From positions 1-49,218 of the IMG/VR virus record IMGVR_UViG_3300024518_002752: a stretch of DNA of 49,218 bases; one strand, 5' to 3'. Positions 1,195-49,218 of the stretch are shown here, piece after piece. Every line of letters starts with the position of its first letter. Positions within the stretch are counted from its first letter, which is position 1. The notes beneath the pieces are model-generated. The model was not told the origin of the DNA, ran no database searches, and saw only the letters and a list, made by a program, of their open reading frames with translations. A program made the position numbers and the translations under genes. Source of the DNA: a virus.

Positions 1195-3266
1195 TCCCCC
1201 GTCTCTTCAAAGCCAACGGCAGCGCGAGCCCATACTCTTCTGCGGCGACCCTCCACGTACTCCCGGCGCTGCTCGAACCCTAGCCTGCGCAGCGTCTCGG
1301 CCACTCTCATCTGCTTGCCCTTGTCCATCTGATAGGGCTGAAGCTCGAGCCCCTCGGCCATCACTCGCTCGATGGTGAACTGGTCCTGTCCGATCGCTGA
1401 GGTCCACTTGGAGATCAACTCCTCCCACGCGTCGTTAACCTGAAAGGGTTGGTGTACATCGCGAAGCGCCTGCTCCTCTGCAGCGGTGAGGTGCCACCTT
1501 TCCCCCTTAGCGAAGGCATCGTAGGCCTCTGCCCACAGCATTCCCCTGAACTCGGTGAGCCACTTGCGGTCCACCCAATCTGTGCGCACCGGCCAGAACC
1601 TGCGCGAGCCTGTACTGTCGGTGAGGAATCCCTCCTCGTTGGTCGAGGCAGCGAACACAACGTGGCGCGGAACCACCTCAGCCTTTGTCTTGTAGGGCTC
1701 GCGGTAGGTGTCGGAGCTGGCGGTGAGGAAGGCTTTGATCTGGCTGTGCGCCCGGCCACGAAAGGAGTCGAGCTCGGCTATCTCGTATATCCAAGCCTTG
1801 CGTATCTGTTGGAAAGCATCCTTGCTGAAGTCGAGCGGGGTGTCAGAGAAGTACTCGTCGCCTGCCAAAACTCTGAGCCCTGTGCTCTTGCCTGCCCCCT
1901 GGGGGCCCACAAGGACGAGCGTCGCGTCGGCTTGGCATCCCGGCCTCATGCATCGAGCGACTGCCTGGATGAGCCACTTGCGCCCCAGTATCCTCGTGAT
2001 GGCTGTGTCGTCCGACGAGAAGCCCTTCACCAGCCACTCGTCCACTCGCTTCTCTCCGTCCCATACCAGTCCTCCCAACCACTCCTGCAGAGGGTTGCGC
2101 ACCCGCTCTGCCGCGTGCATCTCCACAGTTTGCCGGACCACGTTCGTGGCCCAGACCTTTCCGTAAACCCTGTCGAGCCAAACGGCAAGCTTGGTATCTT
2201 CCACGTCAGTCCATCGAACGGCGGCGTCGAGCATCACGTCGCCGTTGAATCCGTTCTTCCAGATGCGATCGTTCCACCGCGTGTCGTGCTCAAGGACGTA
2301 GGCGAGGTTGCTGGGGGTAGCCTTGGGTCTGCCGGTTGGCATCCCTCTTACGGTGTCCTGCTCAACGATGGTGAGCACCGCCTCCTCTGGTCCCCCTTCC
2401 TCTCTGCCGCCGGGTAGCTGGGTAGCGTTGGCGAAAGGAAAGAACTGGGTGAACGGACTGCGAGCGTGGCCGTGGCTCTTGGACATGCAGCATAGGAGCA
2501 CGCCGTCTTTGCATCGACGCAGGAACGCGGACCCCAGAGACGAGCCCTCTTTGAACGGGCACGCCCCCTTGATCTTGTCGCCTCTCTTGTGCTTGAGCCC
2601 CCACTCTTTTATCTGAAGGTGCTCCCCTTCCATGTTGATGAACTCGTGGTCCTCTTCCTGCTCGGGAGCTATCTCTTGTTTGCCCCCACGCAAGATAAGG
2701 TCCACGTCAACGGGAGGCTCGTCGCCTTCGTAGTAGCCGCTCCAGTGGTAGTTGTCCCTGAACTCGGGAGCAGGCGCAGGCAAGTACCACATGCGGGCAG
2801 CGTCTTTGCACGCGGGGTCTGGGATGAGACCAGCGTCTTCGCTGTAGCGCATCGCCCACTTGATGAGGGTCTTGAACTCGCGCACGGTGACGGGCCGAGA
2901 GAGGCAGACTACCGCTCGCGTCCTGTCCTCCCCCGGCTTGTTTGACCATGTGGTGTGCGTAACCATGAGGTAGTTTCCCCACACCGCCTCAACGTCCTCG
3001 ACAGCTGCGCCCTCATCGAAGTCCAGGCACAGGCAGTAGATCTTATCGACGTTCTCGTTGGAGCGTACCGTCCCCTTCTTGAGGGTGAGGGGTGACCACA
3101 GTGGCAGCTGCGCCTTGTCGGAGTAGTTGATTCCTTTCGCGGCCACCTTGTCGAGCCACTTGAGTTCGATGTAGCCCTCGACGAACTCGTCCCAACTCAT
3201 CTCACGGACGGCCCATGGCAGGTTCTTGTAGAGGTTCTTATAGAGGGTTATTTTTATTGGGGTCAC
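1191..3266 (-). CDS. Primase-helicase: AEP-like N-terminus plus VapE/D5-type ATPase
   Basis: The protein is 691 aa from a GTG start at 3266, chosen because GGAGAC lies eight bases upstream and rusA ends 17 bases before; no ATG fits. Residues 79-86 (LCLDFDEG) give a D-x-D pair typical of archaeo-eukaryotic primase folds, and residues about 236-267 carry several Cys and His that may bind zinc. The C-terminal half is a VapE-family (PF05272-like) P-loop ATPase: Walker A GPQGAGKST at 454-462, acidic IYEIAELD at 493-500, FAASTNE at 538-544 and TGSRRFWPV at 552-560. It probably primes and unwinds phage DNA for a host polymerase, since no polymerase gene is visible. The ATPase call is firm; the primase call is by motif only. 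Confidence 0.88.
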   Translation of the reverse strand: MTPIKITLYKNLYKNLPWAVREMSWDEFVEGYIELKWLDKVAAKGINYSDKAQLPLWSPLTLKKGTVRSNENVDKIYCLCLDFDEGAAVEDVEAVWGNYLMVTHTTWSNKPGEDRTRAVVCLSRPVTVREFKTLIKWAMRYSEDAGLIPDPACKDAARMWYLPAPAPEFRDNYHWSGYYEGDEPPVDVDLILRGGKQEIAPEQEEDHEFINMEGEHLQIKEWGLKHKRGDKIKGACPFKEGSSLGSAFLRRCKDGVLLCCMSKSHGHARSPFTQFFPFANATQLPGGREEGGPEEAVLTIVEQDTVRGMPTGRPKATPSNLAYVLEHDTRWNDRIWKNGFNGDVMLDAAVRWTDVEDTKLAVWLDRVYGKVWATNVVRQTVEMHAAERVRNPLQEWLGGLVWDGEKRVDEWLVKGFSSDDTAITRILGRKWLIQAVARCMRPGCQADATLVLVGPQGAGKSTGLRVLAGDEYFSDTPLDFSKDAFQQIRKAWIYEIAELDSFRGRAHSQIKAFLTASSDTYREPYKTKAEVVPRHVVFAASTNEEGFLTDSTGSRRFWPVRTDWVDRKWLTEFRGMLWAEAYDAFAKGERWHLTAAEEQALRDVHQPFQVNDAWEELISKWTSAIGQDQFTIERVMAEGLELQPYQMDKGKQMRVAETLRRLGFEQRREYVEGRRRRVWARAAVGFEETGE

Positions 3267-3283
3267 GGGGGTCTCCAGGTTGG

Positions 3284-3709
3284 TTAGGTTAGGGGGGAAA
3301 GGGTAATCTCCACGGACGGTCCCTCCTGCATGGAGGAGTAGAACTTCGAGGCTGAGATGCGAACGACGCACGAGTCGTCCCTCAAGACGCCTGCCATCGT
3401 GAGACAATCCATCGCTGACTTAACTATGTTGTCTAGGTCAGGCTTGGAGGTGCATGGTAGTCTTAACGGGCTATCACGTTTTCGGCATAACCTCTTGGGC
3501 CGGTGCATGACTGCGACCACGTCGATCGAACACGGCTCGTCGAGGGGCGCGTCCTTCCAGCAGGACCGAGCGAGCATCGCAGCTGCGCGTTCCCACTCGG
3601 CGCTCCCTTTGGGTGAGTACATCTTGATGTGCCCTCCCCGAAGAGTAGCTCGCGGCCTGCCCTTTCCTACGGGAGGTCCAGGGATGACGCACTCAAACGT
3701 CCAGCCCAT
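3284..3709 (-). CDS. rusA: RusA-family Holliday junction resolvase
   Basis: A 141-aa protein, the usual length for RusA. The catalytic signature KPDLDNIVKSAMD lies at residues 89-101, with D91 and D93, followed by DD at 111-112 and K97. These match the Asp triad and Lys of the family. RusA dimers cut four-way DNA junctions symmetrically; in phages this resolves branched replication and recombination intermediates before packaging. The start overlaps the end of the XRE regulator gene by 17 bases. It is followed by the primase-helicase, so regulator, resolvase, primase and helicase form one leftward replication operon. Confidence 0.93.
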   Translation of the reverse strand: MGWTFECVIPGPPVGKGRPRATLRGGHIKMYSPKGSAEWERAAAMLARSCWKDAPLDEPCSIDVVAVMHRPKRLCRKRDSPLRLPCTSKPDLDNIVKSAMDCLTMAGVLRDDSCVVRISASKFYSSMQEGPSVEITLSPLT

Positions 3710-3905
3710 GCACCACCTCCATCACCACCTTGGCATCCCAGCCAAAGAGCCCGACGAGTTTAGAGAACTGGGTTAAGTTCGGGATGCGCTGCTGGTTCTC
3801 CCACATCGAAACCGATGCGCGATTGCTGTCCACCCGCTCACCTAACTCCTCCTGGGTCATTCTGTTTCGCTTGCGTGATAGCATGATGTAGTCTGCCAAT
3901 GTCAT
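3693..3905 (-). CDS. XRE/Cro-type HTH transcriptional regulator
   Basis: A 70-aa protein that is almost entirely a helix-turn-helix domain of the XRE family (about residues 5-58, including MTQEELGERV and the recognition-helix stretch NRASVSMWE). AAGGAGG sits directly upstream of the ATG. It is the first gene of the leftward replication operon and faces the rightward recombination operon across a 156-base divergent promoter region, which is where Cro/CI-like proteins normally bind. With no integrase in the window, a control switch between early transcripts is more likely than classical lysogeny. The operator is suggested below. Confidence 0.85.
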   Translation of the reverse strand: MTLADYIMLSRKRNRMTQEELGERVDSNRASVSMWENQQRIPNLTQFSKLVGLFGWDAKVVMEVVHGLDV

Positions 3906-3923
3906 TCGTGCCTCCTTACAATC

Positions 3924-3937
3924 TTATGGTATCATAA
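3924..3937. promoter_or_regulatory. Candidate operator for the XRE regulator
   Basis: Inverted repeat TTATG-GTAT-CATAA, with 5-bp half-sites and a 4-bp spacer, lies 19 bases upstream of the XRE gene and 9 bases from the -35 box of the divergent rightward promoter. Small XRE proteins commonly bind short palindromes like this and repress their own transcript. Binding here would cover the leftward promoter region. The assignment is positional only. Confidence 0.4.
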
Positions 3938-3945
3938 AAAAACAT

Positions 3946-3975
3946 TTGCAACAACAAGAAGAATGTGTATATAAT
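3946..3975 (+). promoter_or_regulatory. Sigma70-like promoter of the recombination operon
   Basis: TTGCAA at 3946-3951 and TATAAT at 3970-3975 are separated by 18 bases. Initiation near 3982 would give an 80-base leader before the ATG at 4062. The -10 matches consensus perfectly and the -35 matches at four of six positions. Confidence 0.6.
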
Positions 3976-4009: not shown

Positions 4010-4061
4010 CTCGGCCTAGAGATTGGCAGAGATTGAAACCTAAACCAAACCAGGAAAGAAA

Positions 4062-4262
4062 ATGAACCAAAACAGACTTGGCTCTATACATGAAAGGCTC
4101 TTGCATTTAATCCGCTACCTTGTGGAGGAACAAAACTTCACCGCCATCCAGGTCGTGGCTATCCTTGAGAAGCCATGGCACTGGCAAGACGAAGCAGATG
4201 CCATCTGGGACAACAGGAATCTGCAGTCCCTTATCGAAGGAGAAGACCATGTTAACGCTTGA
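4062..4262 (+). CDS. Hypothetical protein, first gene of recombination operon
   Basis: A 66-aa protein with no domain I recognise. AGGAAAG precedes the ATG at 4062. It is predicted mostly helical and slightly acidic, with three Trp residues near the C-terminus (including WHWQ and IWDN). It overlaps the start of the exonuclease gene by 14 bases, so translation is probably coupled. As first gene of an early recombination operon it could be an accessory to the exonuclease/annealing pair; this is inference from position. Confidence 0.7.
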   Translation: MNQNRLGSIHERLLHLIRYLVEEQNFTAIQVVAILEKPWHWQDEADAIWDNRNLQSLIEGEDHVNA

Positions 4263-5253
4263 ACAACTACAACGTCGTCAGTCTTGTCTCACGGCCAGCT
4301 CGGTAGCTTCGGTGCTAGGCGTCAGTAAGTGGAGTACTGGCTTTGATGTCTACGCCAGCAAGACAAAGCCTCTTGAGGTAGACGAGCCTAGCCCTGCGCA
4401 GCTGCGTGGCCACATCTTTGAAGCAGCCATCATTGACTTCTTCGAGCGTGAACTGAGAGCAGTGAACCCAGACTTGGAGTTTGAGCTTGTCTTCCCTTCG
4501 GAACAGGAGACTCCCTTCACTCTAGAGGACTGGCGCGGGGCAACCCCTGACTGTCTGCTGGTGCTCGATGACGAGGTCATCCTCATCGACGCTAAGACTC
4601 AGCGCGAACGCAGAGACTGGGGCGACACCAACTTCAACTACAAGGGGCTTGAGACTGGTACTCGTGAGACTACCATCCCTCTCGACTACGACTGCCAGAT
4701 GCGTTGGAGCATGCCTATCGTGCAGGACAGGATGGACAAACCTTGTCATCGAAGCCTGCTCGTTGTCTTCTTTACGTTGACCGATACCTTCGAGGTCTTC
4801 AGCGTAGACCGCAACGCCTGCGTTGAAGATCAGATGGTGGAGAACTGTCGCAACTGGTGGTGGAAGCACATCGTTGCAGGGGTAGAGCCTGAGCTTGACC
4901 ACTCCACCTCAGCCTGCGCAGCTGTAAAGGAACGCTTCCCTCCGCGTGCAGACGGCTCTCCTTCGGGTGAACTACGTCACGATGACGGCACTGGCAAGAC
5001 GATGGTCGAGCAGATCAAGGCTATCAAGAAGCAGAAGAAGATGATTGAGGAGGAGCTCAAGACTTTGGAGAACCGACTCAAGACATACATCGGAGACGAT
5101 GATGGCATCATTGGCGACGGCTTCAAGGCAACCTGGAAACCACAGAAGGGCCGAGCAGCCATCGACATGAAGCGCCTGAAGACAGACCACCCCGAGATTA
5201 TTTCAACCTACACCAAACAAGAAGACTTCTACAAAGTTCTTCGCATTCGCTAA
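4249..5253 (+). CDS. YqaJ-type viral recombinase exonuclease
   Basis: A 334-aa protein; the ATG at 4249 follows AAGGAGAAG. The N-terminal two thirds is a PD-(D/E)XK nuclease of the YqaJ/lambda-Exo family: opening LTASSVASVLGVS at 14-26, E58 in HIFEAA, D101 in TPD, D114 and K116 in IDAK, and Q150 in the YDCQ helix. Residues about 253-282 form a Lys/Glu-rich coiled coil, a common tail in phage YqaJ proteins. It should degrade one strand from double-strand ends to expose single strands. The next gene looks like the matching annealing protein, the standard two-component phage recombination arrangement. Confidence 0.9.
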   Translation: MLTLEQLQRRQSCLTASSVASVLGVSKWSTGFDVYASKTKPLEVDEPSPAQLRGHIFEAAIIDFFERELRAVNPDLEFELVFPSEQETPFTLEDWRGATPDCLLVLDDEVILIDAKTQRERRDWGDTNFNYKGLETGTRETTIPLDYDCQMRWSMPIVQDRMDKPCHRSLLVVFFTLTDTFEVFSVDRNACVEDQMVENCRNWWWKHIVAGVEPELDHSTSACAAVKERFPPRADGSPSGELRHDDGTGKTMVEQIKAIKKQKKMIEEELKTLENRLKTYIGDDDGIIGDGFKATWKPQKGRAAIDMKRLKTDHPEIISTYTKQEDFYKVLRIR

Positions 5254-6701: not shown

Positions 6702-9700
6702 CCTCCTTCCTCCTGCTTGCCGATGCGTGCTTTTTGTTTTGCGTCGTAGGTGTAGAATCCTCTAAGCGTGCGCCTGACTTCGTTCTCCCACTTCTTCTTC
6801 TTGTTCTTCTGTGCTGGGGTGAGTTTGTCCTCGGCCAACTCCGGACTTTGAAGTAGTTCTACCATCTGGATGAGGTCAACCACCGTAAGCCTCTCCTTGC
6901 CCACCATTTCGCGAAATCTCTTAGACTCGTCCCCGTCCTGGATATAGTTGTCAAAGTCCTCATACGCGGCCTTGGCAACGACGTCCCTAGTGAGCTCTGT
7001 GTCCCTCTCATCAAGCAACTCTTCGAGCAGAGCCCCCATCGGTTTAGGCGTAGTTTCCTCTCCCTCCCCGCTATAGAATGGGTTGCTGTATCCTGGCAAA
7101 TATTTGAGAGAGGGAGCCATTCCGAACTCTGTACTGAGCCCGTCGTACATCGCGGTCCTTTCCTTTTTGTCCTGGTGGCGGTTCCACAACGTGACGCCCC
7201 CAGCGACTGTTCCAGTCCCGGCCACTCCCACTCCCGCCACCGCCCTGGTACGTGGACCGATTCGTCGTTTTTTAAACGCTCGACCGAGAATATCACGGGC
7301 CGTAAGAGCTTCTTCCGCTGCATCAGCGGCACTCTGGGGAAGGTCGCGCCCTGGCTTGAGCGCTCTTACCTCACTCGCATAAAGCTGTACCTTGTTCCCA
7401 TCAGCATCCTTGATGGTGAGGACGTCCCCCTTCTTTGTCTTCTGCACCCTGATGACAGTGGAGACGTCGTCTGGGTTGAACATCCCCTCGGAGTTTCTAA
7501 AGTTGACAACTGTCTTCTCTTTTATCTCACCAACTCCTACTTCCTCGAAGTCCGTTGAGTCGTACTTGCCAGCCGCACGACGTTTGTCGGCCCGCTTCGT
7601 AGCCGCAGCAGCAGCTGCAGCTTTATCCGCAGCTGCCTTCGTCGCTGCCGCGTCGGGGACGTCGGCCTTAGCCTTGGGCCAGTCGGGCTCGCGCCCAGGC
7701 ATCAACAGCGAACCTGGGGCGGAGGCCACATCATCGGAAACAGGGGCGTCCTCCCAGTCGGGAAAGGGTTCCTCGGTCTCCGGGGTGTGCTTGGCGGCGA
7801 CCCGTTCCCTCTCTCGCTTGACCCTAGCTGCCATGGCTTCTCTGACGAGGTCATCTACACTCTTGCCCTCGGCCGCAGGCTTCGGCCGTCTGCCTTGTTC
7901 CAAGTGAGCAGCGGCTCCTTGCTCGAATGACGCAAGTTCGTCGCTGCGTCTAGGACGAGGAGGAAGGTCCGCAGCCGGTGTTACGTCAGGAGGAGCCTGT
8001 CCTGCAGGACCTTGGAGCTGAGGGCGCCCTCCGAGATCCGGCTCGATTACGCTAGTTACAGTAGCTTGTCGCGCTGGCTCTTCCGTGAACTGTTTAGCCG
8101 AAACCGCTAGGGATCTTTCCTTGGGGGACATCGTCGCCAGGCTCGCATCGTCTGGCACAGCCAGACCTGTCTCTTTTGGCTTCGTCACTGCCGGCTCGGT
8201 GGAGGTGCGCCCCACCAAAGGCTGTCTGGTAGGACTGCCGGGGCGCCGGGACACAGGCGTCTCGCCTCGAGCAGAGGCCCGCTCCGCCGCCGCAACTTCT
8301 CTATCGGCCTCCCTCGCCTGCTGCTCTAACCAAGCGGTGTTGTCTTTAGTTGCCTTCTGGCGCGCCGCTCCGGCCTTTTTGATGGCGGCCATGTTATCCG
8401 TGGCAGCGTCCTGCGCTTCCTCGATTTTGTTAAGTCTAGTTTCCTCCCCCCTTTTCATCACCCCCGCTATCCTGTCTTTCTCTTCCTGAATAGCATCAGC
8501 CGCCGCTTTGTTACGCAGCTCCTTGATATCCAACGTCGCGTCCGTCCCAAGTGCGCGTGCTTCCTCTATGTCGCGCTGGTCAAGTACTTTCTCCTTGCCG
8601 GCGCGGATGCGCGCTCCTTTCTCCCCCAGAGTTCCTGCACCCTCAAGAGGGTTCGCCGCCTCCCACTCTTCCGTGAAGGGGTGGTCATCTATGTATTTTT
8701 GGTCCTCCGCCCGCACGGCATCCCAGTTTTTCTCCCCCACTTTGTCAAAGCCTTTCGTCACTTCGGTGGGGTCAGCGCCATTCGGCACCGCCAGTTCCTC
8801 GTGGAGATTCTGCATAGCCTCGCGCCGCGCCCTCGTAGGGTCGGACGGGTTGTTCCTGAGCGCCCTCCTCATAGCTGCACCCACGCGGCCGGGAATCTTA
8901 AGGAGATCTCCCAGCGGAAGGAAGGCTATGATAGCAGTCGCAGGGGCTGACCAGCCGGCTTCTCCTCTGGAGAACTTCTCCGTCTCGTTGGCAAGGTAGG
9001 CTAGGTCATACGCCTGGGCCACGCCTGGAGGCATAAGAGCCTCGGCTATAGACTGCGCGACGGCCTTCTCTACTCCCCATCCCGGCTTCTGATACTCAAC
9101 TATCTCATCTTCGGAAGTAAGGTATTCGCCAGTAGGGGAGATGTAGCGATCGGCCTCCTCGACGTACATCGACGGCTCCCCTGGTCTCATGACGCTAGCA
9201 CCGTGGCCTACCACAGGATCCCTTTTAAGGCTCTCGATCTTCTCCAGTTCTTGTGCGTCTTTCTCCAACTTGTCCACGGAAAAGTCTTTAGGAGGCATCT
9301 CGTCCAGTGGTGGCAGCTGCGCTATTTGTTCCGCAGTCTCCTCCTCCGGTGTTGGGTTCAAATGCTTCCAGTCGCTGCGAGCCTGTCCTTGCGCCTGCTC
9401 GAACTCTTCTATTGAAAGAGGCTGATAGCCAGGGTCGTCCTGGTCTTTATTGATCCAGTCGAACTCTCCCTGAAGGTCTCGCCGCTCCTCGTCGCTGAGC
9501 TCTCGAACCGCTTGGTCGAAAGAGACGTCCGTAAAGAGATCTCCAAGGTTTGTGGACTCCGCTGCCTGTTTGTACAGCGCCATGCGCTCTTGCTTCTCAG
9601 GGTAGCTCAACTCCGCGAAGCCCTCTTCTAGCATCCCAGGCGGGAGAGTGAACTGTTTAGCCACCCGCTTCCTATTCTTAGCGATCTCAGCAGTCGTTGC

Positions 9701-11211: not shown

Positions 11212-11607
11212 CTACGACGAACAAGATTCAAAGTCTACACTAAAATCAACCGTATCTACTGCAGGGGCTACTGAGTCCGTCATGACAGCCACGTAGAGAA
11301 CAGGAATGGTCTGGCCTGTAGGTCCTGGGACCATGTTGGCGATACAATACTTTGGACCGCCTACCGAGATGGGGGTTGCTGTAAGAGGAATGTTCTCAAC
11401 TACCGGAAGACCGGTGGTTACGCCTGGCTGCTCGCGCAGTTGGATAGCCACCTGAGTACCTATTCCTGACGTAATGATTGCCCTCAGTCGCCTCATGCGG
11501 CAGTTCCGTGGAACATTTATGACCGTCTCCGTCCAGCCTGCATCGTTAACGTCGATCGCCGTCCCCGTTGCCCGCATCAAAACTGGAACAATCTGTTCCC
11601 TTCCCAT
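11212..11607 (-). CDS. Hypothetical beta-rich late protein
   Basis: A 131-aa protein with AAGGAG upstream. Few charged residues, many Val, Thr, Ile and Pro, and no long helices, consistent with a beta-sandwich virion protein. Residues about 36-46 (CRMRRLRAIIT) recall the RRIR block of the two downstream paralogues, so it may be a distant third member. Family unknown. Confidence 0.65.
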   Translation of the reverse strand: MGREQIVPVLMRATGTAIDVNDAGWTETVINVPRNCRMRRLRAIITSGIGTQVAIQLREQPGVTTGLPVVENIPLTATPISVGGPKYCIANMVPGPTGQTIPVLYVAVMTDSVAPAVDTVDFSVDFESCSS

Positions 11608-40654: not shown

Positions 40655-40869
40655 GATCCCACCTTCACATGCTCAATAGTCAAGCACCCGGCTTCAGCTA
40701 CCAGTTCGATCGCGGAGGCCTCGGACAAACCCAAAAACACCCACGTATCAATTTCTTGGTTCATGACAGCGCATTCCGCCTGTACTCTCGGATCCCAAGA
40801 ACCATGGATAGCGGTCTTTGGGTGATAGTTTCGGCGCGCAAATTCTCTACACTCTTTGTCTGATGGCAT
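40651..40869 (-). CDS. Hypothetical early protein, first gene of leftward operon
   Basis: A 72-aa protein starting MPSDKECREFARRN. The ATG at 40869 is preferred over an in-frame start at 40971 because GGAG lies 8-11 bases upstream and the longer version would cross the promoter and the AACCAAACC motif. It has a C-terminal VKVGS. Family unknown. It is first in the transcript that also makes the GP88-family protein. Confidence 0.68.
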   Translation of the reverse strand: MPSDKECREFARRNYHPKTAIHGSWDPRVQAECAVMNQEIDTWVFLGLSEASAIELVAEAGCLTIEHVKVGS

Positions 40870-40942
40870 CTTCTGATCTCCATGTGGTTTGGTTTGGTTA
40901 CAGGATGGAACTCCCATCTGCATATACTCTTTAGCCGGTCCT

Positions 40943-41162: not shown

Positions 41163-41319
41163 TTGACATGTCAAGGGCCAGGTCCGGGCTGAGATAATAT
41201 ATACTAAAATAGTATATGATATTTATACTAAAACAGGATTCAAACTTATACTAAAATAGTATACGTTCATTATACTAAAATAGTATATGTGAAAAACTCT
41301 TGACGCGTCAAGGGCCAGG
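41163..41319. repeat. Two 20-bp direct repeats carrying perfect palindromes, flanking the AT-rich array
   Basis: TTGACATGTCAAGGGCCAGG at 41163-41182 and TTGACGCGTCAAGGGCCAGG at 41300-41319 differ only at the two centre bases. Each starts with a perfect 12-bp palindrome. They lie 137 bp apart on either side of the phased TATACTAAAATAGTATA copies, giving a symmetric block that resembles a replication origin or a major operator region. Confidence 0.85.
41200..41287. repeat. Phased array of TATACTAAAATAGTATA dyads
   Basis: The 17-bp sequence occurs identically at 41200-41216, 41247-41263 and 41271-41287, with a half-copy (TATACTAAAACAGG) at 41224. Starts are 24, 23 and 24 bp apart, so the sites recur about every 2.25 helix turns. 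Each is an inverted repeat TATACTA-AAA-TAGTATA. The whole stretch is very AT-rich, as expected for a DNA-unwinding element or array of operators. Confidence 0.85.
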
Positions 41320-41802: not shown

Positions 41803-41930
41803 GGTTGGTGAGTACATGACCTTGTTGCGGTAGAGGATCTGGTTTAGCGGCCACCCTCGCTCAACGGCCCGGAGTTGATCATCCGGGGTGACCGAAGCAA
41901 GGCCATGTACTGACGAGCCCCCACCAAACC
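41803..41930 (+). ncRNA. Structured 5' leader, candidate riboswitch or attenuator
   Basis: The leader folds into a closed multibranch shape: GGTTGGTG (41803-41810) with CACC-A-AACC (41922-41930), then a 14-bp stem 41811-41824 with 41898-41911 (one mismatch, A41819 opposite C41903), and inside it CCCGGA (41868-41873) with TCCGGG (41882-41887). The outer stem consumes the AACCAAAC motif just before the GGAG of the first gene, so folding could control access. I considered a tRNA-like fold but the arms do not fit. No known riboswitch recognised. Confidence 0.6.
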
Positions 41931-41953
41931 AAACCACCACATGGAGCAACGAC

Positions 41954-42610
41954 ATGAACGACTCAACCCTCATCACAATCTCGTGGGACACCACCACCGA
42001 GACTAATACCGTAGCTGCGCTTCGCGAGAAGTTTGCCAAGACCAATCTGTTCGACGACGGAGTGTGGTCAACGATGTCCACTTGGTCAACGTCACTAGAA
42101 AACTTGGCGCAAGTGTTAGAGCATATGCAGCCCGGTGAGGAGTGGACGTGCGACAACTGCACCGTCTCACTGGCAGAGGAAACCCAGCGCGACCCACTGG
42201 CTGACCCGCTCATTGAACTCATTGAAGAGGTACAGAGCGAGTCCTTCCAGTGGAACGAGGACGGCACCCTCAACAAGTACCCCGACGAGCAGATGGAGGA
42301 AAGCCTCACTCACCGCATCATTGTCAAGACAGGCGACACCTTCTACATCTGCGTACCCTCCGACTGGCTGGAGCTTGACTGGCGCGAGCACTACGACACA
42401 TGGTCTGACACCGCGCAGGCTCGCAAAGAGATTGCCGAACTCAGGGACGACAACATCCTGTGGGATCTCAGTCCGGGTTGCTTCGCCATCGACGCGAACA
42501 CCGGCATCGAAGACCTGTTCGGAACCGTCAACCATCTGTACACCATGGTTGACGAAGGCTTCCTCACGGCCCGCGCTGCGATGCTCGCCATCACGGGAGG
42601 TGCAGCATGA
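41954..42610 (+). CDS. Strongly acidic protein, first gene of rightward early operon
   Basis: A 218-aa protein; ATG at 41954 with GGAG at 41943. By my count 42 Asp/Glu against about 12 Lys/Arg, a net charge near -30, many of them in clusters (for example the Glu-rich stretch about 75-100). Such proteins at the head of early phage operons can be DNA mimics that block restriction or host DNA-binding proteins. C67-x2-C70 (CDNC) may bind metal. No family recognised; DNA mimicry is a guess from charge and place. Confidence 0.7.
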   Translation: MNDSTLITISWDTTTETNTVAALREKFAKTNLFDDGVWSTMSTWSTSLENLAQVLEHMQPGEEWTCDNCTVSLAEETQRDPLADPLIELIEEVQSESFQWNEDGTLNKYPDEQMEESLTHRIIVKTGDTFYICVPSDWLELDWREHYDTWSDTAQARKEIAELRDDNILWDLSPGCFAIDANTGIEDLFGTVNHLYTMVDEGFLTARAAMLAITGGAA

Positions 42611-46670: not shown

Positions 46671-46871
46671 ATGGCTAGAGTGCAACGCAAGATTCTGCAG
46701 GGCCGCATCATCGTGTGCAGCAGCTGCGGAAAGATAGCCAGAGGCAAGCAGCCAGGCTGCATAGCTAAGGGCTGGCTGAGTAAGTACATCAGCTACAACG
46801 ACAGCATCTACGGGTGCTCAGAAGAATGTTTTAACCAAGCGAAGGAGAAGAGAGATGTGGGTAATAAATGA
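46671..46871 (+). CDS. Small Cys-rich protein, probable zinc finger
   Basis: A 66-aa protein from ATG 46671 with GGAGGAAGG upstream. C16-x2-C19 and C49-x3-C53 probably bind one zinc; C30 lies between. The N-terminus is basic. Such small zinc proteins are frequent in early phage operons. The 84-base gap before it holds a CAGTT-TT-AACTG hairpin and no gene. Confidence 0.7.
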   Translation: MARVQRKILQGRIIVCSSCGKIARGKQPGCIAKGWLSKYISYNDSIYGCSEECFNQAKEKRDVGNK

Positions 46872-47031
46872 AAAGTATTACGAGTGCGAGGGCGATCCCC
46901 TTTCAGTCTTTGAGGTAGGCTACTACGTCCCCGGCGGGGCGATCACCCCCAAGTGGGTGGGCCTCTTCGAGTACAGCAAACTGGACTCAGCCGTAGACAT
47001 GGTTCACTACCTGAACGGGGGGAACAAATGA
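46855..47031 (+). CDS. Small protein (58 aa) with coupled ends
   Basis: ORF of 58 codons from ATG 46855 to TGA 47031, starting MWVINEKYYECEGDPLSV and ending YLNGGNK. GAAGGAGAAGAG is upstream, TTTTAACCAA precedes it, it overlaps the previous gene by 17 bases, and its TGA overlaps the next ATG (ATGA). Single-domain, acidic and aromatic. It fills the gap between two strong genes; function unknown. Confidence 0.72.
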   Translation: MWVINEKYYECEGDPLSVFEVGYYVPGGAITPKWVGLFEYSKLDSAVDMVHYLNGGNK

Positions 47032-48636: not shown

Positions 48637-48665
48637 TTGCGCCTTTGTAACGATTAGAGTACAAT
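48637..48665 (+). promoter_or_regulatory. Candidate promoter of the small RNA
   Basis: TTGCGC (48637-48642), 17-base spacer, TACAAT (48660-48665). The -10 is identical to the strong promoter at 41787. A start near 48672 would place the RNA directly at its first hairpin. The -35 matches only three or four positions, so this is tentative. Confidence 0.45.
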
Positions 48666-48671
48666 TGATAT

Positions 48672-48748
48672 GAAGCAGCGCGTCTCCATGTGTAGCTTCG
48701 TTTGGTTAGGTTGTCCCGGTGGGTTGGTTACCTGCCGGGACGCTTTTC
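48672..48748 (+). ncRNA. Candidate small regulatory RNA with leader-complementary linker
   Basis: A roughly 77-nt transcript predicted between promoter 48637-48665 and terminator 48713-48748, in a gap with no gene on the plus strand. It folds as 5' hairpin GAAGC (48672-48676)/GCTTC (48695-48699), unpaired linker GTTTGGTTAGGTT (48700-48712), then the terminator hairpin: the usual shape of a base-pairing sRNA. The linker is complementary to sites next to the ribosome sites at 3280-3290, 4039-4050, 40892-40900 and 41927-41934. Interpretation is inference from structure and complementarity. Confidence 0.45.
48713..48748 (+). terminator. Terminator at the end of the rightward operon
   Basis: GTCCCGG (48713-48719) pairs with CCGGGAC (48735-48741), loop of 15, followed by GCTTTTC. 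It works in the plus direction only: on the minus strand, no U-run follows. It stands exactly where the leftward helicase gene ends, separating converging operons. Confidence 0.8.
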
Positions 48749-49218
48749 TATGCGGCCTGTATTCTCTGCATTCCAAGCCGACGATAGAGTCCTTCCCTCT
48801 TACGGGCCCCTCCTCGGAACGGCCCCCAACTGTCACGCAAGTCAAAGACCAGCGGCCCTCGCTTGCCGGGAGCCGGTCGCATGATGCGCCCCACCCTCTG
48901 CTCGACGCGTCCTAAACTGGAACTCGGCGTAGCCATGATGAGCGTGTCCAGGCGTGGGATGTCTAGGCCTTCGTCGGCAATGGTGGTGGCTGTGCATACG
49001 CTCAGCTCTCCTGCGTTCATCGCCTCGATGAGCACCGCCCTCCTCTTGCTCGATAGCTTACCCACCAGCGCAGCCGCCTTGATGCCGCGCTCGATGAGTT
49101 CCTCTGCTAGAACCTCGCAGTGACCAACCCGATCGCTAAGGATAAGGATCGACCTTCCCTCTGCAGCACACCTCGTAGCGATGTCCACGATGGTCTCGTT
49201 GCGGTCCTTGTCAAGTGT
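48748..49218 (-). CDS. SF2 DNA helicase, C-terminal part (residues 356-511)
   Basis: The C-terminal RecA-like domain of the helicase that begins at the left end. Motif IV-like ILSDRV is near residue 380, motif V CTATTIADEGLD at about 430-441, and motif VI QRVGRIMRP at about 462-470. It runs off the right edge upstream; the frame continues without a break from position 129 downward at the left end. The stop is TAG at 48748-48750. Positions 49216-49218 read ACA instead of ACC on the coding strand, both Thr. Confidence 0.93.
   Translation of the reverse strand, partial: TLDKDRNETIVDIATRCAAEGRSILILSDRVGHCEVLAEELIERGIKAAALVGKLSSKRRAVLIEAMNAGELSVCTATTIADEGLDIPRLDTLIMATPSSSLGRVEQRVGRIMRPAPGKRGPLVFDLRDSWGPFRGGARKREGLYRRLGMQRIQAA
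49090..49218. repeat. Right copy of the contig-end repeat
   Basis: Identical to 1-126 over 126 bases with T at 49216 against G at 127. See the left copy. The difference is a third-codon-position change in the helicase gene (both Thr), so both versions are coding-compatible. Confidence 0.9.

Follow-up and report, generated by a model that had tools for sequence, protein, structure and literature searches.

Does the short interval that separates two convergent operons of this virus encode a small RNA acting on the early messages of the same phage? The window in which we asked this question is the whole viral contig, 49,218 nt in length. Its ends overlap by 129 bases (1-129 and 49090-49218, with a single mismatch near the end), and the genome is therefore complete or nearly so; the overlap, together with a helicase gene that is split across the contig ends, indicates a genome that is circularly permuted, circular or terminally redundant. 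When the ends are joined, the helicase frame can be read leftward from about 1206, across the junction, to a stop codon at 48748, and the leftward operon has the order rusA, primase, helicase. The locus of interest lies between the end of this operon and the end of the rightward early operon (near 48638). No phage similar to that of the window was found in an annotated phage collection. Two further features belong to the early region: a small helix-turn-helix gene (HTH_3, Pfam) in the 3693-3946 region, divergent from the recombination promoter at 3946 and likely a repressor of the early switch, and (T)ATACTAAAATAGTATA repeats at 41196-41290, in the gap separating the divergent early operons, which are possibly replication origin iterons or operator sites.

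An earlier note, made from the DNA sequence alone, had described a promoter, a hairpin, an unpaired linker and a terminator in this interval, and all coordinates of this arrangement check out (Table 1). In its sequence signals the locus thus has what characterises a small RNA gene, namely its own promoter and an intrinsic terminator around a short, non-coding, structured RNA. The predicted transcription start is at or adjoining the first base of the 5' hairpin (48670), and the far end of the terminator coincides with the stop codon of the helicase gene, which converges on the locus. The RNA gene folds with -39.9 kcal/mol (z = -6.45 against shuffles), and the fold is strand-specific (-37.4 kcal/mol on the plus strand and -24.1 kcal/mol on the minus strand; -12.7 and -6.4 kcal/mol for the 5' hairpin alone), because several G-U pairs of the plus strand would be A-C mismatches on the minus strand. 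Sites of the promoter class TTGN3-N16-18-TANAAT are rare: both strands of the window together contain four. One belongs to the RNA gene, two serve the recombination operon (3946) and the rightward operon (41763), and the fourth is at 11224 (minus strand); simulated sequence has about 1.15 per window and about 0.001 per 109-nt gap. The weak points of the signals are the -35 element, which reads just TTGCGC, and the short T run of the terminator (TTTTCT), which leaves the predicted RNA with a short U tail (CUUUUCU). A small protein starting from the ATG at 48670 was considered and rejected: it has no Shine-Dalgarno sequence, and its frame runs antisense through the helicase gene.

Table 1. Elements of the putative RNA gene and its proposed target sites; energies are net of self-structure, and counts give the random genome segments that pair as well.
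Feature	Position	Strand	Details
Putative compact RNA gene	48637-48748	+	sigma-70 promoter, hairpin, G/U-rich linker, intrinsic terminator
Promoter TTGCGC-17-TACAAT	48637-48665	+	read directly from the sequence
5' hairpin	48670-48701	+	CUCC loop (48684-48687); many G-U pairs in the inner stem
Second anti-leader block, TCTCCATGTG	48683-48692	+	hairpin loop and 3' arm
G/U-rich linker GTTTGGTTAGGTT (as RNA GUUUGGUUAGGUU), first anti-leader block	48700-48712	+	
Intrinsic terminator	48712-48748	+	stem of 12-13 bp, then CTTTTCT
Proposed target, leftward early leader AACCAAACCAAACCACATGGAGA	40877-40899	-	ATG of leftward early gene at 40869; -14.0 kcal/mol; 11/1500
Proposed target, rightward early leader ACCAAACCAAACCACCACATGGAG	41923-41946	+	ATG of rightward early operon at 41954; -14.4 kcal/mol; 9/1500
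Proposed target, recombination leader AACCTAAACCAAACC before AGGAAAG	4037-4051	+	ATG of recombination operon (RecE-like) at 4062; -13.4 kcal/mol; 14/1500
Weaker proposed target, AACCTAACCAACCTGGAGAC before primase	3264-3290	-	GTG of primase at 3266; 11 bp with the linker at 3280-3290
Possible fifth target, TTTAACCAAGCGAAG	46830-46844	+	directly before the Shine-Dalgarno sequence of the ORF at 46855; -14.4 kcal/mol

The linker is complementary to the AACCAAAC of the early leaders. Pairing with the primase, leftward, rightward and recombination leaders had been noticed before, and all of these sites were confirmed; AACCAAAC is present seven times, with 1.0 occurrence expected. The complementarity extends beyond the linker to a second block that the earlier note had missed: TCTCCATGTG is complementary to CACATGGAGA, the Shine-Dalgarno part located downstream of AACCAAAC in both the left and the right leader. 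The match is exact in the left leader (40877-40886, minus strand) and covers 9 of 10 positions in the right leader (41938-41946), where the leader block reads CACATGGAG; the recombination leader is without the CACATGGAG block. Both blocks are ordered such that one RNA could pair with both parts of a single leader, and this ordered complementarity spans about 24 nt of the left leader. Read in antisense, 48672-48712 is a near copy of an early leader that carries an inserted stretch building the plus-strand hairpin. Alignment scores of this antisense sequence are 16.2 for the left, 13.6 for the right, 12.0 for the primase and 10.5 for the recombination leader; in sum they give 52.3, whereas the best of 20,000 dinucleotide shuffles scored 42.6 and, leaving aside the leaders themselves, the best 41-mer of the genome scored 41.5. 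As is typical of trans-acting base-pairing small RNAs, the complementarity is imperfect, above chance and directed at the ribosome-binding regions of several separately encoded mRNAs.

Interaction energies single out the linker less clearly. Net of self-structure, the left, right and recombination leaders rank in the top 1% when compared to random genome segments; for this analysis we chose gene starts by visual inspection of the ORF table, with the right start set at 41955 instead of 41954, an offset that had no effect on the result. The primase site is weaker (-9.3 kcal/mol net of self-structure, with 63 of 1500 random segments as good); it overlaps the end and the stop codon of rusA, and the start of the primase is the GTG listed in Table 1, not the TTG of the long ORF. 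The possible fifth site, also missed earlier, forms 15 consecutive pairs (G-U included) with 48696-48710 and is the best among 46 other gene starts and the sole one that matches the energies of the leaders; with about 50 leaders to choose from, a stretch of 15 pairs in one of them could plausibly arise by chance. Raw duplex energies, calculated without self-structure, do not single out the leaders, as G+C-rich windows win. When the letters of the linker were shuffled, 7 of 240 sequences reached the energy sum of the four leaders and 27 of 240 reached the number of strong targets. The linker itself barely beats its shuffled versions: it is modestly special by hybridisation energy, and energy alone would not establish the case.

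Relatives were sought with the helicase, the primase, the 413-aa ORF at 46953, RecE, the terminase and the capsid; the searches returned short contigs (L015-L024 among them) and distant proteins, none spanning the RNA locus, and an exact pattern for both anti-leader blocks had no match in viral contigs. The recombination leader is unchanged in an 86% relative (L024). In L019, which has a 75% identical terminase, TAACCAAACCAAACAGGAG and TAACCAAACAGGAG precede two early genes, and this kind of leader also stands before an operon-internal gene.

The leader motif has a wide distribution: AACCAAACCAAAC is found directly before a Shine-Dalgarno sequence and ATG in many unrelated phages (L019, L025-L103), some of which, such as L067 and L050, have several copies per genome. 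Of 68 distinct sites in which GGAG closely follows it, 48 have an ATG at a distance of 3-12 bases, compared to 20% for any GGAG. The unrelated phages with AACCAAACCAAAC leaders are without an equally long anti-leader; in 17 of these phage contigs, every anti-leader match of 14 bases, the one length to which this statement applies, was compatible with the complement of a leader. Because AACCAAACCAAAC is common by the ribosome-binding sites of unrelated phages that have no equally long anti-leader, it probably enhances translation by itself, as an unstructured C/A-rich stretch like those described for GcvB targets (PMC3879156). A leader that is common without an RNA partner is generally independent of the RNA, and this weakens the idea of the earlier note without removing it. 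That note had itself named a leader motif conserved in relatives that lack the linker as evidence against its proposal; the distribution of AACCAAACCAAAC comes close to this, yet the phages concerned are not relatives. A hairpin regularly preceding AACCAAAC leaders was not clearly enriched (18%, compared to 12% in controls).

Elements resembling the linker and terminator are also found elsewhere. In several unrelated phage groups (L031 at 4557-4597, L049 at 9114-9154, L123, L134 and L168; L119 and L142; L110; L122 and L155), a strong intrinsic terminator directly follows GTTTGGTTTGGTT, and GTTTGGTTWGGTT precedes terminators in these same groups. In L049, the GTTTGGTTTGGTT-terminator element lies between co-directional genes. 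The CACATGGAG block is absent from the GTTTGGTTWGGTT-terminator elements of these other phages, and no AACCAAAC leaders were seen in the available stretches of L031 and L049; the elements are probably unrelated to the RNA gene.

We propose, with a probability of roughly 0.55, that 48637-48748 is the gene for an antisense small RNA, about 78-80 nt long, with which the phage acts on its own early leaders in a manner similar to GcvB and c4 RNA. A trans-acting antisense RNA appears to fit the anatomy, the strand and the complementarity better than any rival and is partly supported by them; a further point in its support is that the promoter of the RNA gene is in the same rare class as the promoters of two target operons. 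From the sequence we infer transcription of the RNA, its pairing in the cell, repression and timing as follows. The RNA would be made from the early sigma-70 promoter, with a 5' hairpin that presents an anti-Shine-Dalgarno CUCC loop and with the G/U-rich linker single-stranded before the terminator. The linker would first capture the C/A-rich enhancer AACCAAAC in an early leader; the hairpin, weakened by its G-U pairs, would then open, and its 3' arm would pair over CACATGGAGA in the left and right leaders and mask the ribosome-binding site. As an outcome, three early operons (leftward, rightward and recombination) would be translated less, all at the same time, which is probably a form of negative feedback or of early shut-off while template copies rise. 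The coordinated translational control suggested by the earlier note is therefore retained in so far as anatomy, strand and complementarity speak for it; the widespread leader motif, the weak energy of the linker alone and the weak primase site speak against it.

The chief rival assigns the meaning to the minus strand: the locus could be an early leader (AACCTAACCAAAC...ACATGGAGA), displaced or left as a relic, behind the helicase stop, with the next gene lost and the plus-strand complementarity a by-product. In its favour, 48672-48712 read in antisense reproduces the left leader almost in full and, within the leftward operon, comes directly after the stop of the helicase (48748), and the 75% relative L019 has the same kind of leader before its operon-internal gene. 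However, GGAG on the minus strand is not followed by a start codon at a workable distance, and the plausible genes there are on the plus strand; promoter, U-tract terminator and G-U pairs are all plus-strand features, and the leader copy contains an inserted stretch that forms the plus-strand hairpin. We consider a relic leader unlikely. Less probable still is that the locus is just the 3' end of the rightward early operon, either a plain terminator with a stabilising hairpin or a promoterless small RNA derived from the 3'-UTR, with the complementarity to the operon's own leader acting in cis or through such a 3'-UTR-derived RNA. The last rightward ORF stops a short way upstream, at about 48638, and under any reading the terminator also serves this operon, but a promoter of the rare early class is present exactly where a self-contained RNA would need one, and an anti-leader of 24 nt is not expected in a plain terminator. 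Coincidence, a G/U-rich linker by a terminator matched by a common C/A-rich phage leader, is very improbable: GTTTGGTTTGGTT also precedes terminators in several unrelated phage groups, G/U-rich shuffles pair almost equally well by energy and C/A-rich leaders are common, but the second block, against CACATGGAGA, is in order with the linker and none of the 20,000 shuffles did as well.

How does the antisense RNA that we favour compare with known systems? The pairing region of GcvB is G/U-rich. C/A-rich stretches before the Shine-Dalgarno sequence are translation enhancers that are silenced by this small RNA (PMC3879156). Like GcvB of enteric bacteria, the phage RNA has a predicted G/U-rich unpaired stretch directed against C/A-rich enhancers (ACA-containing in GcvB targets) upstream of the Shine-Dalgarno sequence of multiple mRNAs; unlike GcvB, it would be much shorter (about 78 nt) and phage-encoded, it would target the phage's own early mRNAs and it has a second block against the Shine-Dalgarno sequence itself. 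The resemblance is in mode only: an Rfam scan of the window found no family at gathering score, the covariance models of GcvB and c4 were unmatched, and without a match to GcvB there is no sign of homology. The c4 RNA of phages P1 and P7 is structured, has loop segments complementary to sequence surrounding a ribosome-binding site, and blocks translation of a phage gene (PMC12197685). It is thus also a structured phage RNA against a ribosome-binding site, but has one target (ant) and functions in immunity control, whereas the RNA proposed here would have a separate promoter and several target operons. The short RNAs sar (P22), OOP and aQ (lambda) are likewise antisense to phage mRNAs (PMC12197685), but each acts on one gene, whereas the targets proposed here are several operons elsewhere on the genome. 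VpdS (VP882) and PreS (lambda) are trans-acting phage small RNAs, both of which bind Hfq, and PreS targets host dnaN (PMC12197685), whereas the proposed targets here are the early leaders of the phage. Given these six phage RNAs, the impression of the earlier note that phage small RNAs of this general kind are undescribed does not hold.

Antisense RNAs are already known from phages; the novelty here would be a single leader-derived RNA for several separate early operons of the same phage, and searches of open-licence papers found no such case. The RNA probably originated as an inverted copy of a leader. A more tentative extension, to which we give slightly less than even odds, is that the anti-leader RNA is an inverted copy of the shared leader, with the linker facing the enhancer and the loop facing the Shine-Dalgarno sequence, and that any operon with this leader would come under the same circuit. 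If true, one small RNA against the leader they share would coordinate separate early operons post-transcriptionally, a compact substitute for control by repressor proteins. It would also suggest leader inversion as a route by which such RNAs arise, and it would be a reason to look for matching anti-leader RNAs in the many phages with AACCAAAC leaders.
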